Assembly (NCBI GenBank): GCA_014084085.1
Contig: NPFB01000040.1
Coordinates: 607,594 to 639,068 of the forward strand
Length of the DNA stretch: 31,475 nucleotides
Reading direction: 5' to 3'
Source of the DNA: Hondaea fermentalgiana
Taxonomy: Eukaryota > Sar > Bigyra > Thraustochytrida > Thraustochytriidae
The notes under the pieces are model-generated. The model saw only the letters and a list, made by a program, of their open reading frames with translations. It did not search any database and was not told where the DNA came from. A program made the translations under genes and the position numbers. This document shows, piece after piece, positions 12,710-21,837 of this stretch (within the stretch, counting starts at the first letter, position 1; the number at the start of each line of letters is the position of its first letter).

Positions 12710-12931
12710 GCCCGTTCGTTGAAAAGATCCTTGTAGAAGGTCGATGAACAACGTCTTGCGCTACTTTTCGAGACGGTCTGCGCATAATGCCAACTCACAG
12801 TACTTGTCGATGGAGCTCAGGATCCCCACGAGGTGCCTACCGTCGCGCAAGACGACCATGACGCGTCGATCGAGCTCCTCGATGAGCGACGAGGCGCCCG
12901 GCAGGTGATAGTTTTCCATGAGCTTGCTCAT
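12207..12931 (-). CDS. LSM1: LSM1, Sm-like protein of the mRNA decapping complex
   Basis: LSM1 is the defining subunit of the cytoplasmic LSM1-7 ring, which binds deadenylated mRNA 3' ends and promotes decapping. Three exons on the minus strand are 12931-12799, 12603-12485 and 12350-12207. The donors GTGAGT and GTACGT and acceptors CGCAG and GCGCAG give introns of 195 and 134 nt. Exon 1 encodes MSKLMENYHLPGASSLIEEL then VMVVLRDGRHLVGILSSIDKY (Sm1). Across the junction comes SNIVLEDAYD, and exon 2 has VIIVRSDNIVLVGQV (Sm2, with the RxDN variant of the RG motif). Exon 3 supplies the charged LSM1 tail ending in PEIWDFNEPA. The spliced length of 131 residues is that of LSM1 in other eukaryotes. 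A second in-frame ATG lies 12 bases downstream of the chosen start. Intron 1 contains a large TCTG microsatellite. Confidence 0.93.
12659..12710 (+). repeat. TCTG tetranucleotide microsatellite in LSM1 intron 1
   Basis: There are thirteen perfect TCTG units inside the first LSM1 intron. On the transcribed sense strand they read CAGA, so every unit supplies a CAG that resembles a 3' splice site. The acceptor I infer lies about 55 bases further downstream. Confidence 0.95.
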
Positions 12932-13673: not shown

Positions 13674-16187
13674 TCAACGAAGACCGAAAAAGGAGCGCCG
13701 AGTAGAGCTCCGACGTTCCGATGCGTTGATGGGCATACCATTTTTGTAAAGTCTGCATACATTAGTGAGAAAGGACTCGCTCGAGAGCTGATTATTGGAA
13801 AAGTCAAGGCCCGTCCTGACCCAATGCACGCAAACGTCTTGATACGACCATATATTGGCTACGTCCGGGAGAACGACGACAGGATCTGAAATTGCGTCGC
13901 CCAAGAGATCGGTGGCAGTCGCCGCATCGGCTTCGATGCGCAATTTGTGGTCTGGCACCTTGAGATCTTCGTACGCAACAACGGCCTCCCCGCGCAGCTG
14001 CTCCTGCCACGGAGCCCACGACAAGAGCCAAACGTCCAGATCCGCATCGGTGATTGCGAGGGCCTCCGCGCGGGCAGCCTCGATATCTTCGGGGGTAACG
14101 TCGACATACTGCTCCCATTCCATAGCCCGAGGGGACACTGGAAGACCAAGGTCGTCCCTCAGCTCGAGCTCAAATTTTAGATATACACAAACGTCATCGA
14201 CGTCGAGGTCGCTCAAATTGAGCAGATTACTTGCATGTTGATGTACGACTCCAAGTCGCATTACACCTAGCCCGAGCTTGCGCAGGGCCGTGCGGTCGCC
14301 TCTGGCGTGAGCAAGCGCAGCCACAAGTTGCATCTGTCCAAGAGCCCAGACGGGTTTGTCCACACATGTGTCCACGGCGTCGGCCATGCGCATGAGAATC
14401 TCTTCTCGCGCCACCTCGTCCGTTGCTGCAGTCTCGAGCACATCTCGCAGTCGTTCCAAGAGACTCTCTCGAAGGTCCGGGACGCGATTTTCTAAGCTCG
14501 AGGCGAGGAGTTTCAGGAACTCAATAATGTCGCGAACGTACGCGTTTTCGACAAACGGAGCAAGCTCAATGTCCTCGGCGCCAAAGAGAGCCAACGCGTC
14601 CTCTATTGTATTGATCGAGTTCAAATCGCCCACCTCGCGAAGACACTGTGTCTTTCGCCGCGGTTTGGGCACCGCTTGATCAGAATTTTTCTTGGACGTT
14701 TTTGAGTTTGGACGCATCGCTGTCGCCCCAAGTCTTGCCTCGTGCCCTTGCGACTGCGCCATGAGCTTGCCAGAGGCAGTGCCGGTGACTGAACCCGTAC
14801 TTGCACTTCTCGATGTCCCTGTCGCGCTTCTCCGCGGTTCAAAGTCCGTTGTGTTTGCCCTCCGACTGTTTTCGAGCAGCGTCAGTACCGACGCATCAAA
14901 AGAAAACTTGAGCACATCAGTCTCGATGCTTTGAAGAACCTCGTATGAGTCAGGCTCGAGGTTTGTCGCGCGCACATCGACATGGAGCGTCTTCCTTCGC
15001 TGTTTCTCGAGAGCGACCACGGGAAGTCGGCGGAGCGAGGAGCAGCCACGAAGATCGAGCTTGGAGCCTTGAAAATTTGCAGTGACGGGAATCTTTGTCA
15101 AGGACCACGCATCTTGAAGCCACGTGTTTCCATGTACCGTCAACAAGTTCGGGAGCGTGGTGAGCGAGGTGCAGCTGCGCATGTCAAGATTGCCTTCGAC
15201 AATAAGGTAGTCGGGCAATTTGGACAACCGGGAACACCCTGCCAAGCAAAGTTCGCCACCGACACGTGCTAACGAGTCCGGTAAGCTCTCGAGCGACGAA
15301 CAATCCTCCAGATAAAGGCTCTCAACGTGCTCCAAATTGGAGGGGAGCTTCTCCAGCAGTCTGCATCCCCTGCAGTCCAGTGCACCGCCGAGCTCGGCAA
15401 ACTCCGGGAGCTCCGTGAGCCGATGTCCTCCCTCACGGACCGCGAGGTCTCCTCCGATGCGAATATTCGCGCCCCAGTCCTTGACGTCGATATTGAGCAG
15501 CATGAGGCTTCCGCCGACGTGAAGCCGCTCTGGGACCTGTAGTGGTGCAGGATCAAGAAACTCGCCCTCGGGGCTAATTTCTGTCATGATGACGAGGTTG
15601 CCATGGACATACAGCCCACTAGGTATCCTGGGTGGCGGCGAAGGTTCAGCGCGACTCGTGCTGGTACGTCGTGATCTCTGCGCGCCTGGCACGAGAATCA
15701 AGGCATTGCCACGCACGATCATGCGCGGAAAGTTTTCCACCAGGTCGACGACGAGAACTTCTTCAAAGGGTAGTGACACGCGCAGGGTTCCTCTGTTGGC
15801 AAGCCAATGCAGGGTCACATTGCTCGCCTCGAGGCTGCGTCGGAGGACCGAATCTGGCGGCAGTTTGCGCAGTTCGCGCGCGACCATGGCCCTTCCCGCG
15901 GGCCCAGCGCCGATGGACATCCTCCGAGTGCTCGGTCTTGCCGTCGACTGGGCGGTGATACACGCCATGGCCCTCTTGAGGGCGCGCGCGCTCGCGCCTG
16001 CGCTCTCGCGCAGCGTGCGGCCGCGCTCGCCGTCCTCGCCGACAGCCCCATTTGCGGCCCCGAGCGCCGGCAGCCCCGCGGCCTCGCGCGCGAGCCCCAG
16101 CACGCGCACGACCGCCGCCTCCATGCGCGAGTCCCGCCGTACCCACGTCGACGCCGTCACCTCGGCCACCGCCGTAGCGCTCTCCAT
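13674..16187 (-). CDS. LRR protein with NEL-type E3 ubiquitin ligase domain (copy 1)
   Basis: The 837-residue product has leucine-rich repeats at about 187-395 (units of about 22 residues built on LPxxLxVxGNLxLxxCxSL). A Ser/Thr/Lys/Arg-rich linker follows at about 440-515, then a domain at about 525-740 that I read as NEL, the novel E3 ligase domain of IpaH/SspH-type bacterial effectors. It has the catalytic CxD motif (Cys608, Asp610; codon at 14364-14366), then DDVCVYLKFELELRDDLGLP, then a helix ending in WLLSWAPWQEQL, all in the family order. NEL enzymes form a ubiquitin thioester on that Cys, and the LRR picks the substrate. Residues about 757-803 resemble a U-box. No signal peptide or TM is seen. 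The ATG at 16187 is the first in frame; the frame is open a little further up with no ATG. Composition is like that of its neighbours. NEL assignment is by motif reading only. Confidence 0.8.
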   Translation of the reverse strand: MESATAVAEVTASTWVRRDSRMEAAVVRVLGLAREAAGLPALGAANGAVGEDGERGRTLRESAGASARALKRAMACITAQSTARPSTRRMSIGAGPAGRAMVARELRKLPPDSVLRRSLEASNVTLHWLANRGTLRVSLPFEEVLVVDLVENFPRMIVRGNALILVPGAQRSRRTSTSRAEPSPPPRIPSGLYVHGNLVIMTEISPEGEFLDPAPLQVPERLHVGGSLMLLNIDVKDWGANIRIGGDLAVREGGHRLTELPEFAELGGALDCRGCRLLEKLPSNLEHVESLYLEDCSSLESLPDSLARVGGELCLAGCSRLSKLPDYLIVEGNLDMRSCTSLTTLPNLLTVHGNTWLQDAWSLTKIPVTANFQGSKLDLRGCSSLRRLPVVALEKQRRKTLHVDVRATNLEPDSYEVLQSIETDVLKFSFDASVLTLLENSRRANTTDFEPRRSATGTSRSASTGSVTGTASGKLMAQSQGHEARLGATAMRPNSKTSKKNSDQAVPKPRRKTQCLREVGDLNSINTIEDALALFGAEDIELAPFVENAYVRDIIEFLKLLASSLENRVPDLRESLLERLRDVLETAATDEVAREEILMRMADAVDTCVDKPVWALGQMQLVAALAHARGDRTALRKLGLGVMRLGVVHQHASNLLNLSDLDVDDVCVYLKFELELRDDLGLPVSPRAMEWEQYVDVTPEDIEAARAEALAITDADLDVWLLSWAPWQEQLRGEAVVAYEDLKVPDHKLRIEADAATATDLLGDAISDPVVVLPDVANIWSYQDVCVHWVRTGLDFSNNQLSSESFLTNVCRLYKNGMPINASERRSSTRRSFFGLR

Positions 16188-17044
16188 CCCGCCCGTGCCG
16201 CGCGCGCTCGCGCTATCCGCGCGTGCACAACGCGAGCGAGCAATTGCCTCTGCCCAGCTTTGCGGATGCTCGCTCACGATACCGCCCAGCCAGGTCTCTA
16301 GTACCTCACCTAGTAGCAGCAGTCACAGCTACTAGCACTAGCACAGTATGGCAGTGCTCGTGTACACTGCGAGTCCGCGCGTGCACGCAGCTCCACTAAT
16401 GTGCCATTTAATGTGGGGCCGCGCAGCGCGTGCGGCACGTGCCGCTGTGTCTCCTCGTTTTGCTCTCTCCCCCCTCGTGCTCGCACTCGCTCGCAGCACT
16501 GCAGCTGCAGCTCGCAGCCACGTGGCGGTACCCGCTGGCCCCGGCCCGCCCGCACGCACGCACGCTCGCTCGCTCCTCCCGCCCGCCCGCCCGTGGCAGC
16601 TGGGGCCTGCGGCCCTGGGCACCGGTGCCCAGGCAGGGCCCGCCGCCGCTGGCTCGTGTCGCCCTTCCAGGCGTGCTCTGCTCTTCTCGCTTGTGTCGCG
16701 CGCTGCTTCGCGTGCTTGCTCGCTTGCTTGCTTGCTTGCCGCTTGCCTCTCTGAGCAGTTACCTCTGCCAGTGCCTGCGACGCGAGCGCGGCCGAGTGTG
16801 CGCGCGGCCTCAGCGGCCAGCACGGGCGGCTGAGCTGCGGCGAGCGGGGGAGAACGGCCGGGGAGGCGAGGCCGCAGACTCTGACAAACGCGCAGCCTGC
16901 TGCTGTCTGTGCTGCGCGCAGGCGGGCGAGGCGAGGAGAGGCGAGGGACGGAGGCCGGGCGCGGGAGGCAGGAGCGGCGCGTAGTGCGCACGCGCGGTCG
17001 CAAGCGAGGGGAGGATAGAGGGCAAGCGAGCTCGCGAAGGCAAG
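16188..17044. promoter_or_regulatory. Shared divergent promoter region of the two LRR-NEL genes
   Basis: These 857 bases separate the two start codons. The sequence is extremely GC-rich, with pyrimidine-rich and GCAC/GCTC/GCCC tandem patches (about 16551-16592) and a GCTT array (about 16719-16740). It must contain both promoters. Open frames on both strands are Ala/Arg/Pro/Ser-rich artefacts of the composition. Confidence 0.55.
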
Positions 17045-19912
17045 ATGGACCTTGACAACCTGCTGCGCGAACTGGTGACGCGCGCCCTCGCCGCGGGTGA
17101 CCCGTTTGCTGGGACGTGGATGGCCGCGGACCGAAGACGCGATGGGTTTGCGACGGAGACGCGGCGACTTCTGACGGCCTCGTCGCCAACACCAGAAGGA
17201 GCGGATGAGGAGGTCTGCTGCTGCTGCCACCCCAGCAAGTGGGAGCCCTATGTCACCACAGACGAAGACGAGCCCGTGTCGCTGAGTTTGACTCCCGTCT
17301 GGTGCTACAATCTCGATAACCGCTTCAGCTGCCGACTCGACACCGTTTGGGTCCGAAGCATGGATTGTCTCATCTACCTTGGTGCCTGCGCGATTGTGAC
17401 CCCGATTGCACTTGTCACAACGCCTTTCTGCATCCCTTCCATTCCGGATGATGACGAGGAAGCCTGCGCCATTCATTGCCGGAGCGGCCAGGAGATCCAC
17501 TTTTCCTCCGGTATGGCGGACTGCGCGGCCTCGACCACTGCGCTCCTCTTGACGCTTCCAATCTGCCCACTCCTTTGCGTAACACCCATTGGTCTCGGTG
17601 TCTTGCGCGCCATCCAAGGCACGAGCGGACTTGCTTTGCACACAGGACGAAAAGCCTTCGAGGCACTCACGTGCAGCAAATACGGTTCAGTAGGAGAGGC
17701 GCTCGCGCCGCTCTCCGAAACCTCGCAAGTGCGCGAAGAGCTCGCAAAGGCCGTGATTCACTGGGATCCGCGGCACCATGCCATCAGCGTTTCTCATCCG
17801 CGCAGAGGCTACGTAAAACTTGCAATTCTGGATAATTTGCCCCCTCTTCGCGTACATTCGAGTCTTCTTCTTATGGTTACGGAACTCGATCCAGGCGAGA
17901 TTCAAGATGGTCTTTACGTCCGGAACGACCTCGTGATTATCCCCGAACCGCGCTCGACGACTCCCGAGGACGACCTCGCGCTTCCCGACGGTCTCTGCGT
18001 CGATGGCAATGCCCTCGTTGCTCGGCTTACGGTGACCTCCTTTGGCCGCAAAATGCGCTTCAAAAAGGACCTCGTACTACGCCTGGAGAACACAGAGCCT
18101 TTTCATCTCCCCGATGACATGATTGTGGAAGGCAACCTCAATTGCTCCACGTGCAGCGCTCTGGCAGGGCTCCCGTCGTCATGGACCTCGACCAAATCTC
18201 TCAACCTGTCCGGCTGCAACGCGCTCGAGACGCTGCCACCTGGCCTGAGTCTTGTGGAAGGAAACTTGGTCCTCATCGAATGCATCTCTCTGACAAGTCT
18301 TCCAGAGGGGCTCACCGTCAAGGGCGACCTCGTGCTCCACGGTTGCACGGCACTTGAGGCCCTCCCCGAGGACCTTACAGTTACCGGCAACATTTTGGCA
18401 ATAAATTGCAGGTCATTGCGGACGGTTCCTGCTTCACTGCGCTGCTTGGGATTCGAATTCAATCTCTCTGGCTGCACGGCGCTCTTTTCACTTCCACTCG
18501 AGCCTTTTCAGCAGCCTCGTGGCAATTACCTCATGGTCAACGTGGCTGACACTAGTATTGTCGGCAACGAGCTCGAGCAGCTGCAAAACGTCGAGAACGC
18601 GAATGTGCGTTTCTTTGTGGGCCATTTTGCCAGCGAAGAAGGCTCCAACGCAATTGAGCTCAGCACGCTCTACGACGTCGCTCGCGAATTCGACGTTCAG
18701 GCCATCGACCTTGAAAAGTACATTGATGCTGCATACGTGTATGGCGTGCTCAAATTCCTCGGGATGCTGCTCTCGTCGAGCGAGTTCAAGAATGAAGATT
18801 ATCGGGACGATCTCAAAGCGCGCGTCAAGGAGATTCTGGAGACCATCATCGCAGACCCAATTTCCCGCGATGAAATCGTCATCCGTATGCTTGATGCCAC
18901 GGACGCCTGTGCGGATAAGCCCATTTGGGCACTTGGGCAGATGCAGCTGGTCGTTGCCATTTCTCACGCCCGCGGGGACCGTGCAAAGCTTCGCGAGCTT
19001 GGTCGGTCCATCATGCGTCTCAATATTGTGCATGAGCACGTGGAAAGCTACATCAATTCGCTGAACAGAGCTGTAGACGACGTTTGCGTGTACCTGCGTT
19101 TCGAAATCGCCTTGCGGGAACCACTAGGACTTCCCGTGTCTTCCAAGGAAATGCTGTATGCCAACCACGTGCAAGTGAGCGACGCAGATATCGACAAGGC
19201 CAAAAAGGCTGCGCTTGCAATCCCAGAGGAAAAGTTCGAGGCTTGGCTCGCGGCGTGGCCTGAGTGGCAGCGTCAGGGGCGCCTCGAAAAGATCGTGCCA
19301 TATCTGGAGCTGCCCCGTTTCGCGTCCGAAGTCGACCCGCAGGCCATTACGAGCGCAACAAACCTTCTTGGCGACGTTATTACAGATCCAATCTATGTCC
19401 TTCCGGATACTTCTAACGTTTGGTCGTACAATGACTTTTGTGCTCACTGGGTTCGCACGGGTCTCGACTTCTCCAATGCCTCCACAGATTTTGCCGCTGC
19501 GCAGCGGCTTCAGGATACGAAACCTACGACCGCGGAGAGTCCTCGCCGAGCCTCCTTGGCTCCGCGCCGGGTGTCTCTACGTGCGGGCACAGACGCTTCT
19601 GCAGCTCGACGCCGTAGCTCGCGCATGAGCGAGGTTATTGACGACACCTTATCTACGGTCCTGATGCGGGCCATGTCGACTTGGCTTCCTTCGTCGGCGT
19701 CATCGGTCATCGGGTCAAGTGCTGCTCCAACACCAGAAGCTACTTTTTCGCGCGATGCTGACGCTCAATTGTCGGTGAGGCGTGGCATGGACAGCGACTC
19801 AGAAGAGCATGGCGGCGAAGAAGAAGAAGAAGAAGAAGAAGAAGAAGACTACGACGGGGACAAGAGGAGACTCGATTTTCCAGATTTTGACAACCTCGAA
19901 AGCAAGCCGTAA
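17045..19912 (+). CDS. LRR protein with NEL-type E3 ubiquitin ligase domain and N-terminal membrane segments (copy 2)
   Basis: This 955-residue paralogue of the gene on its left is read in the opposite direction. The N-terminal about 230 residues are unlike copy 1: a four-cysteine run at 58-61 and two hydrophobic segments at about 107-130 and 159-190, so it may sit in a membrane. LRRs of the same type lie at about 310-485 (for example LPEGLTVKGDLVLHGCTALE). The NEL-like domain spans about 540-755, with the CxD motif at Cys622 and Asp624 (codon at 18908-18910), then DDVCVYLRFEIALREPLGLP and WLAAWPEWQRQ. The U-box-like segment is at 771-812. The C-terminus is a Ser/Arg-rich then acidic tail with a run of 12 Glu. 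It starts at the first ATG and has no intron. The paralogues match best in NEL and the C-terminal segment, less in the LRRs. Confidence 0.82.
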   Translation: MDLDNLLRELVTRALAAGDPFAGTWMAADRRRDGFATETRRLLTASSPTPEGADEEVCCCCHPSKWEPYVTTDEDEPVSLSLTPVWCYNLDNRFSCRLDTVWVRSMDCLIYLGACAIVTPIALVTTPFCIPSIPDDDEEACAIHCRSGQEIHFSSGMADCAASTTALLLTLPICPLLCVTPIGLGVLRAIQGTSGLALHTGRKAFEALTCSKYGSVGEALAPLSETSQVREELAKAVIHWDPRHHAISVSHPRRGYVKLAILDNLPPLRVHSSLLLMVTELDPGEIQDGLYVRNDLVIIPEPRSTTPEDDLALPDGLCVDGNALVARLTVTSFGRKMRFKKDLVLRLENTEPFHLPDDMIVEGNLNCSTCSALAGLPSSWTSTKSLNLSGCNALETLPPGLSLVEGNLVLIECISLTSLPEGLTVKGDLVLHGCTALEALPEDLTVTGNILAINCRSLRTVPASLRCLGFEFNLSGCTALFSLPLEPFQQPRGNYLMVNVADTSIVGNELEQLQNVENANVRFFVGHFASEEGSNAIELSTLYDVAREFDVQAIDLEKYIDAAYVYGVLKFLGMLLSSSEFKNEDYRDDLKARVKEILETIIADPISRDEIVIRMLDATDACADKPIWALGQMQLVVAISHARGDRAKLRELGRSIMRLNIVHEHVESYINSLNRAVDDVCVYLRFEIALREPLGLPVSSKEMLYANHVQVSDADIDKAKKAALAIPEEKFEAWLAAWPEWQRQGRLEKIVPYLELPRFASEVDPQAITSATNLLGDVITDPIYVLPDTSNVWSYNDFCAHWVRTGLDFSNASTDFAAAQRLQDTKPTTAESPRRASLAPRRVSLRAGTDASAARRRSSRMSEVIDDTLSTVLMRAMSTWLPSSASSVIGSSAAPTPEATFSRDADAQLSVRRGMDSDSEEHGGEEEEEEEEEEDYDGDKRRLDFPDFDNLESKP
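19816..19849 (+). repeat. GAA microsatellite encoding poly-Glu
   Basis: A run of GAA/GAG codons inside the LRR-NEL copy 2 gene encodes a stretch of Glu in its acidic tail. It is probably length-variable. Confidence 0.85.
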
Positions 19913-20299: not shown

Positions 20300-20352
20300 T
20301 TCACTTTCTGCCCCTTGGCGTGAACTAGGACAGCCTGCACGTGCGCTGCGCG
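19913..20352. promoter_or_regulatory. Intergenic region upstream of delta-tubulin
   Basis: This holds the 3' end of LRR-NEL copy 2 and the 5' region of delta-tubulin. A CT dinucleotide run (about 20263-20286) passes straight into a CG run (to about 20300), only about 50 bases upstream of the delta-tubulin ATG. An open frame from 19942 translates through these repeats and shows no domain, so I do not call it a gene. Confidence 0.6.
20263..20300 (+). repeat. (CT)n(CG)n compound microsatellite
   Basis: Twelve CT units are followed by about seven CG units, just upstream of the delta-tubulin start. The alternating CG run could adopt Z-DNA. Confidence 0.9.
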
Positions 20353-21837
20353 ATGGCCGCAGTCGTCTCGGTGCAGATCGGTCAGTGCGGCAATCAGCTT
20401 GGCGAAGCTGTTCTCGATGCCCTCCACGCGACCTGCATCAAGGGCAACGTCCAGGACTCCACTCCTCCACGAACCGAGTCATCATCATCTTCTTCCTCGT
20501 TGTCTTCGTCTGCCTTCTCAAATGCTCGAGGTGGACGCAGCGGCGCTCATGATGATACAGGTTTGCAACACGCAACTGACGCGGCACTACAACGTCGATC
20601 AGATGCTCAGATTCGCGCCTTTATAAGCGCGAGACGTCGTCGCGAGGTCTTCTTTCACGCCAACTCTAAACTCGACGAACAAGAAGAGATCGTGCTCGAG
20701 GAGCTCCGTCGAGACACTGACGCGAGCTCTCGAAAACCACCTCGACTGCCAGACCGCCGCGTTGCTCGTGCAGTCCTGGTCGACATGGAGCCTCGCGTTG
20801 TTGATTCTTGCGTCGCGCGACGAGGACTTTGGCGCTACGCACCCGGGCGAAGACTCACGTTTGAGGGCGGCTCCGGAAACAATTGGGCGCAAGGTTTTGT
20901 GCAAAATGGCCCGCTCGTCGCCTCGCGCTGTGTAGAAATGCTGAGACGCGAAGCCGAGGCCGCCGATAGTCTGAGTGGCTTCCTCCTTATGCAGAGCGTT
21001 GCGGGTGGTACAGGGTCTGGCGTTGGATCTCATGTGACGCAAGTCCTTCGCGACGAGTTTCCTGGCGCTTCGGTGGCAAACGTTGTAGTTTGGCCACACA
21101 AATTGGGCGAGGTTGTCGTTCAAAACTATAACGCCATTCTCACACTTGCAGAACTTCAGCACACCTCGCATGGCATTATTAATTTGTTTAATGACGAGGC
21201 ACGGGCAGTCTGCCAGCGAGCCCTTCGAGTCGAGCGCCCTGAGATGCAGCATCTCAACCGGGTTCTTGCGCGCGATCTCTGCGCGAGCGCTCTCATTCCG
21301 TCGCGAAGTACTGATTCGAGCTGTCGCTGGCGCGACGATGACATTCTTGATGCCTCTGTGCGTGAGCTGTGCGTTCGCCCGGCGCTCAATTGTTTACGCG
21401 CGGCAATTGTACCACAATTATCCGAGGAAGCTGTCTCCTTTTCGTCGTTTTCCTGGGCTGCGCTCGGGAAAGAGGCCGCGACGAACGCACGAAAAAACTT
21501 TCGTGGAACGATTGCTGCAACCTTTACATACCGAGGCAAGGGCGCGAGACTAGCAGCAACAGAGGCCGGGCCTTATTATGAGCAACGAACTCGCTACGAC
21601 GAGTCGAGCTCGCCATTGCAAGGAATTGAAAAGACGATCGCATGCTTGAGCAACTCGGCGAGTATTGCGGACCCTGTGCACGCCGCTCTCGCGCGTGCGA
21701 ATCGGATGTTTGCCGTGGATGCCTACATGCACGAGTACGCGCGCGCGGGCCTCGAGCGCGATAGCATTCGCGAATCTCTCATCCGTGTGCAGCAGCTCGC
21801 TCAGGACTATGACACAGCGGTCGGTCCAGACACTTGA
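20353..21837 (+). CDS. TUBD1: Delta-tubulin
   Basis: Delta-tubulin is needed for the triplet microtubules of centrioles and basal bodies. The 494-residue protein opens with the tubulin nucleotide-site motif QIGQCGNQLG (8-17) and carries the tubulin signature GGTGSGVGS at 218-226. The context is FLLMQSVAGGTGSG followed by VVVWPHKLGEVVVQNYNAILTL, which is the delta form and not alpha, beta or gamma. DMEPRVVD at 144-151 matches the conserved loop. Residues about 38-75 are a Ser-rich, low-complexity insertion in the N-terminal domain, and the C-terminus lacks the acidic tail of alpha/beta tubulin. The ATG at 20353 places the QIGQCGNQ motif at the normal distance from the N-terminus. No intron is seen. 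Its presence implies a flagellate stage with triplet basal bodies. Confidence 0.92.
   Translation: MAAVVSVQIGQCGNQLGEAVLDALHATCIKGNVQDSTPPRTESSSSSSSLSSSAFSNARGGRSGAHDDTGLQHATDAALQRRSDAQIRAFISARRRREVFFHANSKLDEQEEIVLEELRRDTDASSRKPPRLPDRRVARAVLVDMEPRVVDSCVARRGLWRYAPGRRLTFEGGSGNNWAQGFVQNGPLVASRCVEMLRREAEAADSLSGFLLMQSVAGGTGSGVGSHVTQVLRDEFPGASVANVVVWPHKLGEVVVQNYNAILTLAELQHTSHGIINLFNDEARAVCQRALRVERPEMQHLNRVLARDLCASALIPSRSTDSSCRWRDDDILDASVRELCVRPALNCLRAAIVPQLSEEAVSFSSFSWAALGKEAATNARKNFRGTIAATFTYRGKGARLAATEAGPYYEQRTRYDESSSPLQGIEKTIACLSNSASIADPVHAALARANRMFAVDAYMHEYARAGLERDSIRESLIRVQQLAQDYDTAVGPDT

Follow-up and report, generated by a model that had tools for sequence, protein, structure and literature searches.

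Two divergently oriented genes in the nuclear genome of Hondaea fermentalgiana, a thraustochytrid stramenopile, encode proteins in which leucine-rich repeats (LRR) precede a NEL domain, and we consider it probable (about 0.82) that both are resident nuclear genes, encoded by the host itself, belonging to a family of at least 14 NEL-type E3 ubiquitin ligases with exchangeable recognition modules. The pair occupies positions 13674..19912 of a 31,475-nucleotide stretch of contig NPFB01000040.1, hereafter the window. A preliminary description of this DNA, made from the sequence alone, had proposed a host-encoded NEL ligase family; our analyses support that interpretation, and add to it the size of the family, the variety of its N-terminal modules and a conserved C-terminal tail with a predicted U-box-like fold.

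Reviews, in the parts available, treat NEL as bacterial (PMC9320238; PMC11354881). A review of 2014, likewise available in part, stated that NEL ligases, unlike most bacterial ligases, have no structural similarity to eukaryotic E3 enzymes, and floated the idea that eukaryotes might encode related NEL enzymes (PMC4133400). Among the titles and passages surveyed in the open-licence literature on NEL in eukaryotes, thraustochytrids or their neighbours, none describes the present family; NEL does not occur as a whole word in PMC11453091 or PMC3423634, and in the part available of a Giardia inventory (PMC7029713) PF14496 appears only among the accessions searched. In eukaryotes, a NEL-like domain has been claimed for NLR-like genes of Klebsormidium nitens; in the part of that paper available, the argument runs through an LRR-type (ODAL) domain (PMC7145615). 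Database rows for the proteins described here already bear PF14496, some under names borrowed from SspH1 or ipaH7.8; the domain call is already public, yet, as far as we have seen, apparently undiscussed. The Hondaea proteins are a concrete eukaryotic family, in a named protist, of the kind raised by PMC4133400, and they make the origin of NEL ligases testable. They also allow the regulation and the substrates of NEL enzymes to be studied in a native, non-pathogen setting, and join NEL to a predicted U-box-like domain in one protein family.

The NEL domain and the Hondaea family

Both proteins match the Pfam NEL profile (PF14496) at 85.1 and 105.4 bits against a curated cut-off of 24 bits, which excludes a chance match. 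The ordered hallmarks listed in the preliminary description (C-x-D-K-P, GQMQLV, MRL, DDVCVYL and W-x3-W-x2-W-Q) are readable in both translations. The all-helical fold expected of a NEL domain is seen in the AlphaFold2 model of the 955-residue protein 2, which has helices only over residues 542–749, and the seven top rows of a Foldseek search with this model were solved bacterial LRR-NEL enzymes, with low whole-model TM-scores. By sequence, protein 2 matches SlrP in the PDB (E 6.9e-18) over residues 352–752, comprising LRR and NEL, and its further PDB relatives include several IpaH proteins, SspH1, SspH2 and LRR-only proteins; the set for protein 1 is similar. NCBIfam effector models gave weak matches, far under their cut-offs, to the five proteins scanned, as expected for NEL homologues that are not those effectors.

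SlrP, SspH1, SspH2 and IpaH are thus the best sequence and structure matches of the window proteins and share with them an LRR followed by NEL, the CxD motif and a catalytic domain that is all-helical (predicted here). Unlike these enzymes, the Hondaea NELs form a multigene family in a eukaryotic nuclear genome; D-K-P-[IV]-W-A-L follows the cysteine in most copies, a terminal U-box-like domain is predicted, and the LRR may be replaced or accompanied by other modules. Bacterial LRR-NEL enzymes are Gram-negative proteins injected by type III secretion, whereas the Hondaea genes sit among eukaryotic genes.

The Hondaea genome (36.0 Mb, 238 contigs) contains 13 NEL matches on 12 contigs, all 13 above the cut-off and none with an internal stop. 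Since the NCBI Hondaea protein P0018 finds at best a 40% identical match in the searched genome, the family has at least 14 members. That assembly lacks an identical copy of P0018 and may be incomplete or filtered. Three protein searches and the genome yielded 55 eukaryotic NEL sequences, 49 of them distinct. Rows dropped were P0003 and P0008, which carry the name Hondaea fermentalgiana, are identical to the window's NEL regions and represent the same genes, and a further six NCBI Hondaea models already present as open reading frames (ORFs) of the genome. The set includes Hondaea, jgi, lgn and mmetsp rows, one Durusdinium trenchii row and other rows, and counts sequences, not species. The Durusdinium row (P0010), NEL with armadillo repeats on an 11-kb contig, is close to thraustochytrid sequences and may be a contaminant of the dinoflagellate assembly. 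The search with the NEL region of protein 1 gave five matches, one of them new (P0027).

Across this set the CxD motif aligns with that of bacterial NELs, and its Cys and Asp are kept in 49/49 distinct eukaryotic and 24/24 bacterial rows, extending well beyond the two diverged window copies in which their retention had first been noted. The catalytic residue predicted in protein 2, Cys622, was placed exactly; that of protein 1, given as Cys608, is numbered from the first ATG and corresponds to Cys638 of the GTG-started ORF. In 11 of the 190 trimmed alignment columns one residue is shared by at least 90% of the eukaryotic and at least 90% of the bacterial rows; these columns include the Cys and Asp of the CxD motif and the leading Asp of DDV.

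Conserved tail and varied N-terminal modules

Newly found here is the joining of a eukaryotic NEL to a conserved C-terminal domain whose predicted fold is U-box/RING-like, and which is spanned by none of the bacterial matches seen. The tail departs from U-box/RING E3 enzymes such as Prp19, CHIP, Ufd2/E4B and AvrPtoB in several respects. Ten of the 13 Hondaea tails were scanned with Pfam, and none matched the U-box (PF04564) at E up to 10; one tail matched MDHAR3-like_C (E 0.24), which we set aside as weak and unrelated. The loop-2 Pro is an E2 contact in U-boxes; here it is present in 1/48 tails and replaced by Leu, Phe or Tyr in 47/48. With one tail as query, all 12 places found in the Hondaea genome lie behind a NEL, none elsewhere. 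The tail alignment (A6) leaves out six of 49 tails.

At the other end of the protein the family is far less uniform. LP motifs, PDB matches and the protein 2 model bear out the LRR reported before NEL in both window proteins; LRR-bearing PDB chains match protein 1 at residues 216–399 and 300–380. Elsewhere in the genome, Pfam recognises SPRY and other LRRs in two copies (C173 and C69; the SPRY-bearing paralogue has 1828 codons), SAM in C221, and in C96 a weak armadillo match before NEL with no LRR match. The other Hondaea copies have LRR-like repeats by eye and similarity to protein 2, of which Pfam recognises few. The C221 frame (L047:1887-9899) is a single open frame of 3546 codons, of which 2671 were read, with SAM, LRR-like repeats and NEL, and is unusually long for a eukaryote. 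A 716-codon LRR-like frame (C30, L050:2134-4281) resembles the repeats of the NEL proteins without a NEL match, and is possibly a recognition-only relative.

In protein 2 and the other members of its subclade, P0004-P0007, the N-terminal region (window 17045-17734 for protein 2) contains cysteine as well as hydrophobic stretches; among the proteins checked, the threshold was passed outside the subclade only by P0003 (the same gene) and P0033. This region could be a membrane anchor common to the subclade, or a lipidation site.

The likely orthologues of proteins 2 and 1 are P0004 (support 97) and P0027 (support 100) respectively, and since each window gene has a likely orthologue in another source, the split between the two probably predates the lineages of P0004 and P0027. 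In both pairs NEL identity is 73%, while the LRRs reach 43% and 56%, and of the parts compared NEL changes most slowly. This pattern, one of protein identity and not of dN/dS, is compatible with selection that keeps the enzyme active as recognition changes. It is possible, if doubtful, that the ligase family is more specifically a pathogen-sensing repertoire, a form of protist innate immunity in which varied, faster-changing domains select invading proteins for ubiquitination. The modules do vary while NEL is kept, several NCBI Hondaea models are named after plant disease-resistance proteins, and LRR chains of plant NLR complexes occur among the structural matches; but those names and matches reflect repeat similarity only, and lower LRR identity can equally arise through relaxed constraint.

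Predicted activity

In bacterial NELs, according to the part available of PMC9320238, ubiquitin is linked as a thioester to the CxD Cys, its transfer requires the Asp, and the LRR is able to block the active site. The best reading of the eukaryotic copies, judged from conserved residues, is that they too are cysteine-dependent ubiquitin ligases. Some residues flanking CxD differ from those of bacteria, as they might in a catalytically dead scaffold retained for binding; this we regard as improbable, given that Cys and Asp are invariant in all 49 rows while many other positions vary, and that NEL changes most slowly in both orthologue pairs.

As active ligases, the proteins would bind an endogenous or invading protein through the N-terminal module, a host E2~ubiquitin would charge the CxD Cys, and the Asp would help to pass ubiquitin to a lysine of the substrate. 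By analogy with bacterial NELs, contact with the LRR may keep the enzyme inactive as long as no substrate is bound. The U-box-like tail, lacking the usual loop-2 Pro, would not be a complete second ligase but an accessory site that docks E2~ubiquitin, dimerises or helps with positioning. A membrane location is possible for protein 2, via its hydrophobic N-terminal region.

PMC11642839, in the part available, presents thraustochytrids as decomposers and parasites, and the NEL proteins might accordingly be secreted effectors used by the protist on prey or hosts. This is very improbable: no 19-mer of protein 1 exceeds a mean hydropathy of 1.6, the hydrophobic stretches of protein 2 begin at residue 108 and not at the N-terminus, and paralogues bearing SPRY (1828 codons) or SAM (3546 codons) look intracellular.

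Genomic setting and relation to bacterial NELs

The pair sits on a 934-kb contig, and the two ORFs described previously were recovered at 13674-16277 (minus) and 17045-19912 (plus). The first comprises 867 residues counted from a GTG; its first ATG is codon 31, where the NCBI model P0008 begins (Table 1). LSM1 and delta-tubulin had been named as eukaryotic neighbours: an LSm1 piece (12764-12925, minus) and a tubulin piece (20329-20472, plus; labelled delta-tubulin in a source record of P0003) were found, as was Pex2/Pex12. Base composition resembles the surroundings, as had been noted, with third-position G+C (GC3) of 0.65 for the protein 1 gene and 0.63 for the protein 2 gene against 0.56–0.70 in seven neighbouring ORFs. 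Between the two start codons, where the promoters of both genes likely lie (16188..17044), G+C reaches 0.72 over 16001-17000.

Eukaryotic and bacterial NELs are homologous across the domain (profile E 4.7e-21). In a tree that used 24 of 29 bacterial loci (those dropped were L153, a partial match of 60 residues that includes no CxD, and L141, L144, L149 and L108, judged to be repeats), they split with 100% support across a branch of 1.13 substitutions per site. The phylogeny suggested in the preliminary description thus yields homology and a clean division, but the tree is unrooted and gives no direction of transfer. Support for placing the bacterial branch beside the divergent C76 copy is 70%, and long-branch attraction may account for that position. 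Eleven of 79 loci from one search were taken into the analysis, and a genome search centred on G003, an already known match, matched 8/397 other genomes. L134, from a record titled Mycobacterium sp. KBS0706, has a 1004-codon NEL frame and groups with rhizobial NELs; the record may carry the wrong organism name.

The rhizobial NELs of NopM type come from the legume symbionts Sinorhizobium and Bradyrhizobium and carry annotations as NEL-type ligase or as the type III effector NopM. Aligned with five Hondaea NELs, they are 23–26% identical and keep CxD and a second Asp; the roughly 70 residues after their core appear unlike the eukaryotic tail. By tblastn, 157 bacterial plasmid records match, all below 60% identity, the best among 40 listed being about 31%. 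Patterns from the eukaryotic alignment gave 113 matches in bacterial and archaeal genome contigs, with no confirmed relative, and 23 in viral contigs, none confirmed.

The separation of eukaryotic and bacterial NELs looks old, because of the fully supported split, the long branch, the low identity of the plasmid matches and the lack of prokaryotic relatives in the pattern search. The simpler account is that an early labyrinthulomycete received the gene by transfer and gained the tail. A bolder and rather unlikely alternative places the origin in eukaryotes: NEL would be an ancient eukaryotic ligase class that became joined to a U-box-like domain and grew into a recognition repertoire in labyrinthulomycetes, and proteobacteria would have captured a eukaryotic gene from which the bacterial effectors derive; if so, one chain holds both thioester-forming and RING-type E2-handling modules. 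Although effectors of Gram-negative bacteria are the best-known NEL proteins and bacterial plasmids do match, we reject the idea that the genes are bacterial DNA, whether contamination or a very recent transfer not integrated into host biology, given the 12 contigs, the length of the present contig, the position between LSm1 and tubulin, the fitting GC3, the low plasmid identities, the deep split and the tail that none of the bacterial matches seen spans.

Table 1. Features of the NEL gene pair, in window coordinates
Feature	Position	Strand	Basis
NEL protein 1 (P0001)	13674..16187	-	837 aa from first ATG; frame extends to 16277 (GTG)
U-box-like C-terminal domain (predicted), protein 1 (from residue 791)	13740..13907	-	conserved C-terminal tail
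NEL domain, protein 1 (residues 580-763)	13989..14540	-	Pfam PF14496, 85.1 bits, E 6e-24
Predicted catalytic Cys638 of C-V-D, protein 1 (Cys608 from first ATG)	14364..14366	-	aligned with bacterial CxD
LRR region, protein 1 (residues ~290-440, limits approximate)	14958..15410	-	LP motifs at 290-418
Stretch separating the divergent start codons	16188..17044	.	G+C rich
NEL protein 2 (P0002)	17045..19912	+	955 aa ORF
N-terminal region, protein 2, two hydrophobic stretches (residues 108-126, 166-184)	17366..17596	+	hydropathy
LRR domain, protein 2 (residues ~311-520)	17975..18604	+	model; ten-residue pLDDT means 90-98
NEL domain, protein 2 (residues 568-743)	18746..19273	+	Pfam PF14496, 105.4 bits, E 3.6e-30; helical model
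Predicted catalytic Cys622 of C-A-D, protein 2	18908..18910	+	aligned with bacterial CxD
U-box-like C-terminal domain (predicted), protein 2 (residues 774-829)	19364..19531	+	model E782-785, E788-794, H795-805, E819-821

NCBI Hondaea gene models join NEL genes to the adjacent LSm1 or tubulin, which in the genome occupy separate places. About half of the tail that relatives conserve is missing from the model joined to LSm1, and we therefore take the joined models to be annotation errors, likely chimeras.
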